From positions 1,464,248 through 1,528,247 of the forward strand of contig NC_020813.1 in the NCBI RefSeq assembly GCF_000348725.1: a stretch of DNA of 64,000 nucleotides, read 5' to 3'. The DNA is from Pseudobdellovibrio exovorus JSS. Lineage in GTDB: Bacteria > Bdellovibrionota > Bdellovibrionia > Bdellovibrionales > Bdellovibrionaceae. Under the pieces are notes generated by a model, which saw only the letters and a list, made by a program, of their open reading frames with translations, ran no database searches and was not told the origin of the DNA. The translations under genes were made by a program, and so were the position numbers. Below, one piece after another: positions 12,394 through 26,884 of the stretch (positions are counted from its first letter, which is position 1; every line of letters starts with the position of its first letter).

Positions 12394-13650
12394 TTATGTG
12401 GAAAAAGCTCTTTCGACACGCTGACTTAAAGACTTCACCTCAGTAGCCACTGTCCGGATAAACGAGTAGGCCGAAGTTCCCTGAAATAGCTTGGCTTGCT
12501 CGTCAGCCTGCGCCAGAAGAGTATCCACGATAGGCAATGCGATCTCGCGTCGTAATTTGTCGTAACTGTAGTTGACGTCGTTTGCCAACTGCCTCCAATG
12601 ATTTTCAGATAAGTTCGCTCCGTCAAATAGGCCTCCGATACTCATGGCCTGATTTTTAGTTAAGTTGCTGTAGATCCGAGTACAAAGCAAATCGTAAAAC
12701 GGACTTAATCGCCAACGGCGATCCGCCGACATTAAAAAAGAGATATTTTTACCGTGGTGATCACAATTGCCAACACAGACATTGAACACTAACCATTTCA
12801 GCAACTGCTCTAGGTCCTCTAGCGGGGAAACACTGATATCTTCAACAAAATTAAACGCCTGAACAAATGTGGGACCACCCTCTTCTTCGTATTTTTGCTG
12901 ATAGGAAATCCCCATGGCTTGGCAAAGATCCTCTTGATGCAATCTTTGCGGCAGTCCTTTTACTTTGCCCTCTGTCCGGTCATAGCGCTCCACCAGCAAT
13001 CCCGTAAACGTGCCATGCCGTACCAGCTGCACAGGCATCATCTTGAAGTCGCAATCTAGTGCCAACTGAGAAATATAGTATTCATTTTCAGTCAGATAGG
13101 CGTAGTCTTTACTGGGAAATTTCAGAATATGCGAGCTCGGGGCTCCACCACTGGGAAGGAAATACTTCCCACCCTGCACCGATAGCGCCACTTTGTCTTG
13201 GGCTCCAGCCAAACTAAGCCTGATATCTTTTCCTTCAAATCCCAGATAAAAAATCGGCTGCTCAGCATAGATGCGAGATATTTTCGCCAAACTGATCGGG
13301 ATATATTTTTCCGACTCTGTTTGGGTCGATTCGCCCGCAGAGCCTATAGTAAAAGCACCGGCACAATCTTCGCCCAATGCCTGCAAAAGCGAAAAGTCAT
13401 TCTCTTCGCTGACACCTAAGCGCTTCGCGATCAGCTTACGCAGCTTTCCTTCCGGCAAAAGATTCCCGAAATAAACCGCAGCACCCTCAACATAAGTCAC
13501 GGAATCCAACGGAAGACTGTGGGATAAAGCGAAAGAGCGGGGATCCGTTAGCCATTCCTTTGTGTATTCAAAACAAAGTTGGCCTTCAAAATCCAGATAT
13601 AGCTTTCCTATTGGCCGTGAATCATAAAAAACAGCTAAGGATGGCACCAT
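12394..13650 (-). CDS. hipA: HipA-family serine/threonine kinase toxin
   Basis: Toxin kinase of a type II module; the E. coli relative phosphorylates glutamyl-tRNA synthetase and induces persistence. Visible features are the N-terminal subdomain (FGNLLPEGKLR near 61-71), SLAGAQDK (146-153), an autophosphorylation-type loop PSSHILKFP with Ser172 at the E. coli S150 position, the catalytic Asp297 in GNCDHHGKN, and the metal Asp320 in PFYD. All key residues are present, so the kinase should be active. Length 418 is near normal. It starts two bases after the hipB stop, so the pair is one operon. The target protein here is unknown. Confidence 0.95.
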   Translation of the reverse strand: MVPSLAVFYDSRPIGKLYLDFEGQLCFEYTKEWLTDPRSFALSHSLPLDSVTYVEGAAVYFGNLLPEGKLRKLIAKRLGVSEENDFSLLQALGEDCAGAFTIGSAGESTQTESEKYIPISLAKISRIYAEQPIFYLGFEGKDIRLSLAGAQDKVALSVQGGKYFLPSGGAPSSHILKFPSKDYAYLTENEYYISQLALDCDFKMMPVQLVRHGTFTGLLVERYDRTEGKVKGLPQRLHQEDLCQAMGISYQQKYEEEGGPTFVQAFNFVEDISVSPLEDLEQLLKWLVFNVCVGNCDHHGKNISFLMSADRRWRLSPFYDLLCTRIYSNLTKNQAMSIGGLFDGANLSENHWRQLANDVNYSYDKLRREIALPIVDTLLAQADEQAKLFQGTSAYSFIRTVATEVKSLSQRVERAFST

Positions 13651-13652
13651 GG

Positions 13653-13880
13653 TTAAACCTCCGACTCACGATCCCCGATTTGCAGCTCAAAGCCCATACG
13701 GTTCAGAACTCGCAATGTCAGCCCCAAGTCGTAAGTTTCTTTTTTTCCACCCTCGAGCTCAGAAATAAACCGTCTCCCTACCCCACACATTTCCGCCAGA
13801 TCTGTCTGAGACAGTTTTTTCTTTTTTCTTTTTTGCTGAATTAATCGGCCTATGTCTTTGGGTTTGTTTACTTTTGCCAT
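13653..13880 (-). CDS. hipB: HipB-family antitoxin and repressor
   Basis: Small XRE-type HTH protein (75 aa from the ATG at 13878-13880) with the helix pattern KLSQTDLAEMCGVGRRFISELE, given here only as its helix-turn-helix span, residues about 23-44. Antitoxins of this family bind HipA and repress their own operon. The ORF extends two codons upstream to a TTG, but the ATG is preferred. Only seven bases separate the ATG from the first operator and no Shine-Dalgarno is present; a -10-like hexamer ends just upstream, so the message may be leaderless. Three palindromic operators lie upstream. Confidence 0.93.
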   Translation of the reverse strand: MAKVNKPKDIGRLIQQKRKKKKLSQTDLAEMCGVGRRFISELEGGKKETYDLGLTLRVLNRMGFELQIGDRESEV

Positions 13881-13886
13881 ATACAA

Positions 13887-13915
13887 ATGATCCCGTACGG
13901 GATCAAAATAGTCAA
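13887..13915 (-). promoter_or_regulatory. hipBA promoter overlapping operator 1
   Basis: On the minus strand TTGACT (13915-13910) and GATCAT (13892-13887) are separated by exactly 17 bp. Operator 1 fills most of the spacer and part of the -10 hexamer, so a bound repressor would block polymerase. The predicted start of transcription, about seven bases on, falls at the A of the hipB ATG. Confidence 0.55.
13888..13905. promoter_or_regulatory. hipBA operator 1 (18-bp perfect palindrome)
   Basis: TGATCCCGTACGGGATCA is a perfect 18-bp palindrome next to hipB. The half-site ATCC/GGAT spacing resembles the known E. coli HipB operator form TATCC-N8-GGATA. Confidence 0.9.
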
Positions 13916-13926
13916 TATTTAATAAA

Positions 13927-13944
13927 TGATCCCGTACGGGATCA
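13927..13944. promoter_or_regulatory. hipBA operator 2 (identical palindrome)
   Basis: This is an exact copy of operator 1, starting 39 bp farther from hipB. It shares the flanking AAAAT on the same side. Confidence 0.9.
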
Positions 13945-13965
13945 AAATGAGTAAAAGTAGTGTTC

Positions 13966-13983
13966 TGTTCCCGTACGGGAACA
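13966..13983. promoter_or_regulatory. hipBA operator 3 (symmetrically altered palindrome)
   Basis: TGTTCCCGTACGGGAACA begins again exactly 39 bp from the previous copy. It differs from operators 1 and 2 by one change in each half, A to T and the matching T to A, so perfect symmetry is kept. The AAAATAG flank is conserved. Confidence 0.88.
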
Positions 13984-15259: not shown

Positions 15260-15592
15260 TCAGGCTGCGCTCTTATCAAAGGCTGTCATAATCTTGCAGA
15301 GTGTATCTAGGGATGGATTACCTTGCTTACCCGTGGCTTCATACACTACAGTACGGCTTAGTCCTGTCCGACGACAGACCTCTAGAATATTATGAGTTCT
15401 TACGTACCCGGCCAGTATTTCAATAAAAGCTTCTCGGTCACCATCGAATAAGGACTCTGCGAGAGCTAATTTGATTTCTTTATGGTTTTTAAAAATGTGA
15501 CTTGGGTCATGCGGTATCAGTTGCAACCCGTTACTGAGCATGAATTTTCTCGGCGATCTTTTGTGCTTTTTTGATATCTTTATCTTGCCCAT
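15260..15592 (-). CDS. Antitoxin of a RelE/HigB-like module (COG3636-type HTH)
   Basis: The 110-residue protein has the addiction-module antidote layout: a middle segment IKLALAESLFDGDREAFIEIL, then an HTH (EVCRRTGLSRTVVYEATGKQGNPSLDTLCKIM, spanning about residues 72-104). It should bind its toxin and repress the operon. Its ribosome site AGGAGG is perfect and is made by the last codons of the truncated toxin gene just upstream (15601-15606). The reading frame is intact although the toxin is not. Confidence 0.82.
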   Translation of the reverse strand: MGKIKISKKHKRSPRKFMLSNGLQLIPHDPSHIFKNHKEIKLALAESLFDGDREAFIEILAGYVRTHNILEVCRRTGLSRTVVYEATGKQGNPSLDTLCKIMTAFDKSAA

Positions 15593-15597
15593 TTTTA

Positions 15598-15780
15598 TTA
15601 CCTCCTAGAATCAAGAACACTGCCATGCTCTGCAATATTCAGCAAGCGACCGTCAATTTGCGCTCTGACTTTTGGACTCTGCTTCTTATACCAAACTGTA
15701 TACTCTTCTGTTGCAAGAAATACAGTTAGTCTTGATTGTACGCTATTCCGTACAAAATAGCAAGCCCATTTGTTATCCAT
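15598..15780 (-). pseudogene. Truncated RelE/HigB-like toxin (C-terminal half missing)
   Basis: Sixty codons resemble the N-terminal half of the HigB-like/Gp49 addiction toxins (a TEEYTVWYKKQ segment, then VRAQIDGRLLNIAEHGSVLDSR). Full-length relatives are about 95-110 residues and continue with a glycine-rich strand and the catalytic arginine/tyrosine region, which is absent. The frame ends TCT-AGG-AGG-TAA, directly against the antitoxin start. A GAAGG ribosome site lies six bases before the ATG and can pair with CCTTC just upstream. I infer an internal deletion that left the antitoxin and its signals. The piece probably has no nuclease activity. Confidence 0.7.
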
Positions 15781-26205: not shown

Positions 26206-26884
26206 AACTTTTTCTGTAAAATACATATTTAGGATGCAAGCTTCTTATATAGAAATACGCCATATACAGAGCTGAAACTAAGATACCAAAAGATACAAAT
26301 AGAATTAAGTAAATCCCCACCCAAGAGATCACCCCTCTTTTTGATGATTCCATGAAATTTTCCATCAGTATCTTAGGCTGAGTGACAAACTTAGCCTTTT
26401 CTTTGAACAAAACCCCTTCACCTTTAGATACTGACGCATAGTTAGCATTAGCTTGTTTCGTTTGCTCTTGCATATACTCGAACAATCTCTTCATTACGCC
26501 TGCATGAAACAATTGAATAGGCTCTAAATCTGATTTGCTAAATATGTATATCTTTGATGATAGCTTAAGAACTTGTTCTTTACTGTCTATATAGCTAGAT
26601 TTAACCTGATACACATGTCCTATTTCTTCGCTAATCTTAGGGGCTATTTCTTCTTCAATTAAAAAATCTACAAACTCTTTACTAATTAACGCATGAGTAT
26701 ACTCATGCGTAGGCACTTGTATAATAGACACATTACGCTTTGCAGATAAGAATATCCAAGACACTGCAAAAACACACAAACTTAAAACAGCCGAGCAATA
26801 GACAATTTTCCATCTATTAGAATAAAGATAAAATAGATAATATAAATATCCTTCCTCTTCAGATATTTGTATTTGATCTTTCAT
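26198..26884 (-). CDS. Short Wzz-like chain-length protein
   Basis: 228 residues with a hydrophobic helix near 27-49 and another near 187-212, and a mostly helical periplasmic part between them, the layout of polysaccharide co-polymerases. The periplasmic part is shorter than usual Wzz (about 135 rather than 220-280 residues), and no proline-rich motif precedes the second helix. It may set glycan length with the polymerase at 21479. Overlaps pglD-like downstream, 19 bases after the GT-C-like gene. Family assignment rests on topology and context. Confidence 0.55.
   Translation of the reverse strand: MKDQIQISEEEGYLYYLFYLYSNRWKIVYCSAVLSLCVFAVSWIFLSAKRNVSIIQVPTHEYTHALISKEFVDFLIEEEIAPKISEEIGHVYQVKSSYIDSKEQVLKLSSKIYIFSKSDLEPIQLFHAGVMKRLFEYMQEQTKQANANYASVSKGEGVLFKEKAKFVTQPKILMENFMESSKRGVISWVGIYLILFVSFGILVSALYMAYFYIRSLHPKYVFYRKSYE

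Follow-up and report, generated by a model that had tools for sequence, protein, structure and literature searches.

Why would three copies of one palindrome stand at exactly equal intervals in front of a toxin-antitoxin operon? The question is raised by a locus of the epibiotic predator Pseudobdellovibrio exovorus JSS, lying in a 64,000-nt stretch of its genome (the window), which is an ordinary hipBA type II toxin-antitoxin module and whose interest lies in a spacing pattern that extends over the family. The hipB gene (13653..13880, minus strand) encodes a 75-aa helix-turn-helix antitoxin/repressor, for which the best NCBIfam match is TIGR03070 couple_hipB (63.6 bits, under the cut-off of 71.65), HTH_3 and HTH_19 being matched over their cut-offs. 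It lies 2 nt upstream of hipA on the same strand (12394..13650), encoding a 418-aa HipA-family Ser/Thr kinase (HipA_C, 9.2e-54; Couple_hipA, 1.4e-23) with both the N-terminal and the C-terminal HipA domains. Aligned by phmmer to HipA of E. coli (152 bits, alignment spanning residues 3–323), this protein has the kinase motifs GAQxK, DxHxKN and FYD intact (as SLAGAQDKVA, CDHHGKN and SPFYD), and is predicted from them to be an intact kinase. The locus is read as a standard hipBA module because of these domain matches and this motif-bearing alignment. With hipA as one 418-aa frame, and without separate hipS and hipT genes, it is not a HipBST system, and its half-site, TGATCCCG, places it outside the E. 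coli hip operator class (TATCCN8GGATA, the 27–28-bp clade). A second antitoxin-like gene (dnstrm_HI1420, PF21716) is found at 15260–15592 (minus strand), about 1.3 kb from the palindromes, and adjoins a 60-aa open reading frame (15598–15780) without Pfam match that could be its partner.

The palindromes occupy the interval between hipB (ATG at 13880, minus strand) and the end of the upstream gene (14021), and are ordered along transcription as O1, O2 and O3. O1 (13888..13905, closest to hipB) and O2 (13927..13944) both read TGATCCCGTACGGGATCA, O3 (13966..13983) reads TGTTCCCGTACGGGAACA, and all three are perfect 18-bp palindromes with start-to-start distances of 39 and 39 bp, as had been described in the initial annotation; its description of O3 also holds, an A>T change at position 3 being mirrored by T>A at position 16. 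The half-sites of the array are TGATCCCG/TGTTCCCG, of which TGTTCCCG is also found in a Rhizobium locus (L201). Four perfect 18-bp palindromes occur in the whole 64-kb window, including O1–O3, versus 0–2 in each of ten dinucleotide-shuffled windows. The fourth (GCATGAGTATACTCATGC, 26691–26708) lies within an unrelated 228-aa membrane-protein-like open reading frame, probably by chance. In the 2,657,893-bp single-contig genome, the core CCCGTACGGG is confined to O1–O3, and a genome-wide search retrieved no additional site with at most two mismatches to TGWTCCCGTACGGGAWCA; at three mismatches, four scattered sites were found versus three for a reversed control pattern, so that no extra HipB site stands out above background elsewhere in the genome. 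Taken with their position, their sequence and the comparison with relatives, the palindromes are best interpreted as hipBA operators, as first proposed.

The mirrored substitution in O3 had been taken as a strong sign of selection on dimer binding, and this argument proved weak. Across arrays, the outer seven pairs show 545 changes on one side only, against 100 that are mirrored, which indicates that imperfect symmetry is well tolerated. Quasi-palindrome templating can moreover create a mirrored pair in a single event.

What could such an array do? We consider it quite probable, from the sequence and its comparison with relatives, that an autoregulated hipBA operon has the three palindromes as its operators, and that they mediate cooperative autorepression by HipA–HipB complexes placed in helical register. 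A HipB dimer, usually with two HipA, would sit on each 18-bp palindrome. A candidate sigma-70 promoter on the minus strand (13887..13915, TTGACT-17-GATCAT) has its -10 element (13892–13887) inside O1 and its -35 element in the O1–O2 linker, and is a weak match (9/12); an alternative candidate, read from the sequence at 13917–13945 (TTGATC-17-TTAAAT), spans O2. As O1 would lie over the candidate -10 and the hipB start region, and O2 beside the -35, occupancy would shut the promoter off. Neighbouring complexes would be separated by a fixed rotational offset (39 bp, or 3.7 turns of 10.5 bp), so that they may touch or share a bent DNA path, leading to cooperative binding. The selected trait would then be evenness and register rather than the number 39, register being retained in relatives whose gaps have shifted by about one full turn. 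From what is directly read (the operators, their uniqueness and even spacing, discrete classes across the family, diverged linkers, and absence from higBA), we infer HipB binding at O1–O3, repression, cooperativity and the geometric cause of the latter. HipB does bind operators in E. coli (PMC3376134) and Legionella (PMC10653801), and the E. coli HipA–HipB2–HipA complex bends its operator by 70 degrees (PMC3376134).

The initial annotation took the E. coli hip operators to follow no known 39-bp rule. The four operators of E. coli K-12 (TATCCN8GGATA) nevertheless start at 565, 593, 632 and 660 of the retrieved locus (L005), with gaps of 28, 39 and 28 bp, and 39 bp is therefore not new, being exactly the middle gap of this promoter; its two gap lengths are 11 bp, or about one turn, apart. 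Both systems have serial 18-bp palindromic operators upstream of hipB, including at least one 39-bp gap, but E. coli has four sites with a TATCC half-site while the window has three sites at 39/39 with TGATCCCG/TGTTCCCG half-sites. Legionella HipBST also has three evenly spaced, HipB-bound operators, with 53-bp gaps (PMC10653801), that is, about 71 bp centre to centre (6.8 turns) for an assumed operator length of 18 bp. There too the operators are not identical, O2 and O3 being slightly unlike O1; unlike in the window, the Legionella O2 and O3 lose symmetry, where O3 here retains it, and hipS and hipT are split. Serial identical inverted repeats are likewise known from Caulobacter hipBA1 and hipBA2, a likeness that follows the authors' description of the intervals, which in their view agree with the higher-order complex of E. 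coli (PMC7029023). In YefM–YoeB, altered palindrome spacing breaks cooperative binding (PMC4803016, a review), although that system has an unrelated antitoxin fold and two palindromes 12 bp apart, as opposed to three hip palindromes 39 bp apart. The broader spacing pattern was not found described as such in the literature covered, which did not include the 2015 paper on the E. coli HipBA–promoter structure, and the novelty of a general spacing statement is uncertain.

To what extent is even spacing shared by other hip promoters? HipA_N loci were gathered over the order and the phylum, together with 19 plasmid or phage-scaffold regions, yielding a final set of 167 hipBA/hipBST promoters, in which the promoter of each neighbouring hipB was scanned for pairs of alike palindromes without any consensus; outside the phylum, the set was small and consisted mostly of plasmids. 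A palindrome pair scoring at least 54 was present in 102 of the 167 promoters versus none of 668 dinucleotide-shuffled promoters, and no matching pair was found in 27 promoters of higBA, a specificity control from the same order in which the antitoxin is also a helix-turn-helix protein. Among lower-scoring pairs (47–53; 42 loci), 31 fall within the spacing bands versus 28% for shuffles, and they do not represent a clean hold-out since some were already known when the bands were set. It was the first 26 loci that suggested the helical idea, most loci having been gathered later.

Within a promoter, consecutive gaps are equal in 56 cases, 1 bp apart in 37 and 10–11 bp apart in 6, with some other difference in 11. 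Across promoters, gaps fall into classes of 27–28, 38–41, 49–50 and 60–61 bp. The proposal of a fixed 39-bp spacing, which irregular homologues would have undermined, thus came through this check on the 167 promoters in modified form: homologues are as a rule evenly spaced, but the gap varies among promoters, and 39 is neither universal nor new (28/39/28 in E. coli, and the other classes in relatives), so that evenness together with helical register appears to be the conserved feature. In the single-linkage HipA_N family that includes the window (54 loci), gaps of 27–28 (48 cases), 38–39 (10) and 48–52 bp (54) account for 112 of 114, the remaining two being 36 and 54 (twice 27). One relative (L007), whose HipA is 41% identical to that of the window, has gaps of 39/39 and a different core, and an Oscillospiraceae MAG has gaps of 38/38 and the same core, CCCGTACGGG. 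Outside the phylum, gaps of 49–50 bp are found in Rhizobium (50/49), Rhodovastum (50) and Leisingera (49/50), and gaps of 27–28 bp in Microvirga (27/27), Raoultella (27/27/27), Klebsiella (28/28/27) and a phage scaffold (27/27/27). Some arrays are mixed (41/30/41/31 bp in L029), and exceptions occur (49/52 in L068).

Other arrays were encountered in the same survey. A second hipBA operon of the P. exovorus genome (L077/L251, G000:C1:2473856) has four imperfect TATAAAATCGTATAAA-type palindromes at steps of about 26 bp, slightly outside the 27–28-bp class. Operators of the TTACTG..CAGTAA family (L029, L188, L196, L173) have mixed gaps of 30–31 and 41 bp, which again differ by about one turn inside a single array, with apparent sums of 60–61 and 71–72. 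The phylum also commonly has split HipS/HipT-like (HipBST) operons (L056–L071, L105, L106 and similar), mostly with TATACCC..GGGTATA operators at 40–41 bp.

Spacing class also follows the type of toxin. HipA N-subdomains with LLPD/CVGA go with gaps of 27–28 bp, those with LLPE/CAGA with 39 and 49 bp, and mostly split HipS proteins (about 105 aa) with 40–41 bp; the HipA of the window carries LLPE and CAGA, not LLPD/CVGA, and is placed in the 39/49 clade. Since N-subdomain type tracks spacing class, the toxin, and not HipB alone, may set the register. A HipA of the 27-bp class is clearly E. coli-like (304 bits to E. coli versus 87 to Shewanella), and the HipA of the window (152/143 bits) and one of the 49-bp class (133/106) are nearer equidistant; these scores do no more than suggest that a compact (E. 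coli) versus an extended (Shewanella, HipBST) architecture is reflected in spacing class. We lean slightly towards a general form of this pattern, an even, turn-stepped gap code across the HipBA and HipBST systems of bacterial phyla, in which each subfamily would have its own gap, changing only by about one turn (27–28, 38–41, 49–50, 60–61, perhaps 71 bp) because the HipA–HipB assembly would require neighbouring complexes to be in register, the class going with the HipA N-subdomain.

The helical component was assessed by a Rayleigh test at 10.5 bp, which, for 22 clusters at 50% HipA_N identity, gives R 0.73 with a mean phase of 0.70 turn (p ~8.5e-6), the best-fitting period in this set being 11.1 bp. 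At 40% identity, where 9 clusters are left and a single median stands for all classes of the large family, significance is lost (p ~0.1), indicating that independent origins are few. For this reason, the helical claim is carried mostly by discreteness within families and by the mixed arrays of E. coli (28/39/28) and L029 (41/30/41/31). The step from class to class is about one helical turn, while the phase offset varies by family, from about 0.6 turn (27–28 bp) to 0.7 (39 and 49–50 bp) and 0.8–0.9 (40–41 and 60–61 bp). This varying offset, the 9-cluster test, the spacing exceptions and the weak promoter match, together with a Legionella mobility-shift assay, count against the register mechanism.

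That assay shows no sign of cooperativity for Legionella HipB, intermediate occupancy being what its authors propose (PMC10653801), as might be expected if HipB complexes bound their operators independently and spacing were dictated by promoter architecture, that is, by the RNA polymerase contacts to be covered, rather than by repressor contacts. Two relatives (L007 and L039) do have good promoters with an operator enclosed in the 17-bp spacer. We nevertheless regard this explanation as unlikely: where a third and a fourth operator lie upstream of the promoter, they are spaced like the others, the best-scoring promoter lies at differing offsets in different classes, and HipB binding has been reported as cooperative in E. 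coli (PMC3376134).

Could even spacing instead be a matter of history only, a unit of some 39 bp having been duplicated in tandem, or the spacing having been inherited with no selection on register? As inheritance would predict, spacing class tracks the HipA tree (11 changes versus a shuffled mean of 53), and the three sites have short CAAAAT flanks in common. Linkers are however 35% identical versus 32% for shuffled sequence, while operators are 82% identical, which argues against a recent tandem duplication, and this origin of the array was left unsupported. Of the two 21-bp linkers of the window (13906..13926 between O1 and O2, 13945..13965 between O2 and O3), the first has an inner part that resembles the other no more than shuffled sequence does. 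In the HipA tree, the four loci with 39-bp gaps (the window and L007 among them) are interspersed with 49–50-bp loci, at weakly supported forks, and both gaps shift jointly by about a turn. Because of this scatter, both gaps of the 39/39 array in the window look shortened by one turn relative to 49/50 relatives, a change that perhaps happened more than once, though such forks would also allow a single origin. Differences of 11 bp inside one promoter, as in the mixed arrays mentioned above, likewise do not fit, and history as the only cause appears rather less likely still than independent binding. It is, finally, very improbable that the palindromes are RNA hairpins (terminator or attenuator) or GATC methylation sites, as their terminator-like scores, strong RNA folding (z -8) and two GATC each in O1 and O2 might suggest, since such folding is expected of any perfect palindrome, no Rfam match was obtained, the even arrays of relatives are AT-rich palindromes that would be weak terminators, O3 lacks GATC, and no MethyltransfD12 (Dam) match was found in the genome; the terminator, RNA-family and Dam readings were dropped.

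Two TCCCGTACGGGA cores close together were found in 20 contigs collection-wide, of which only one (L039) is a hipBA, and this pattern was dropped; in the remaining contigs (from Streptomyces, Tannerella and Flavobacterium, among others) hipBA is absent from the neighbourhood, and no paired TCCCGTACGGGA cores were found in viral contigs. Dispersed paired TCCCGTACGGGA repeats occur in several contigs of a Tannerella MAG (L036, L042, L043, L047, L048) and of a Flavobacterium MAG (L041, L052), again with no hipBA nearby.

Cooperative autorepression in helical register, the reading that we favour, bears on the biology of HipA, the classic persistence toxin. The hipA7 change of E. coli is thought to disturb HipA–HipA contacts in the promoter-bound complex (PMC7029023). 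An even, turn-stepped spacing that recurs in many HipBA families, although their linkers are unrelated and their operators differ in sequence, makes the generality of such higher-order promoter complexes directly testable, and helps the prediction of operators from sequence alone.
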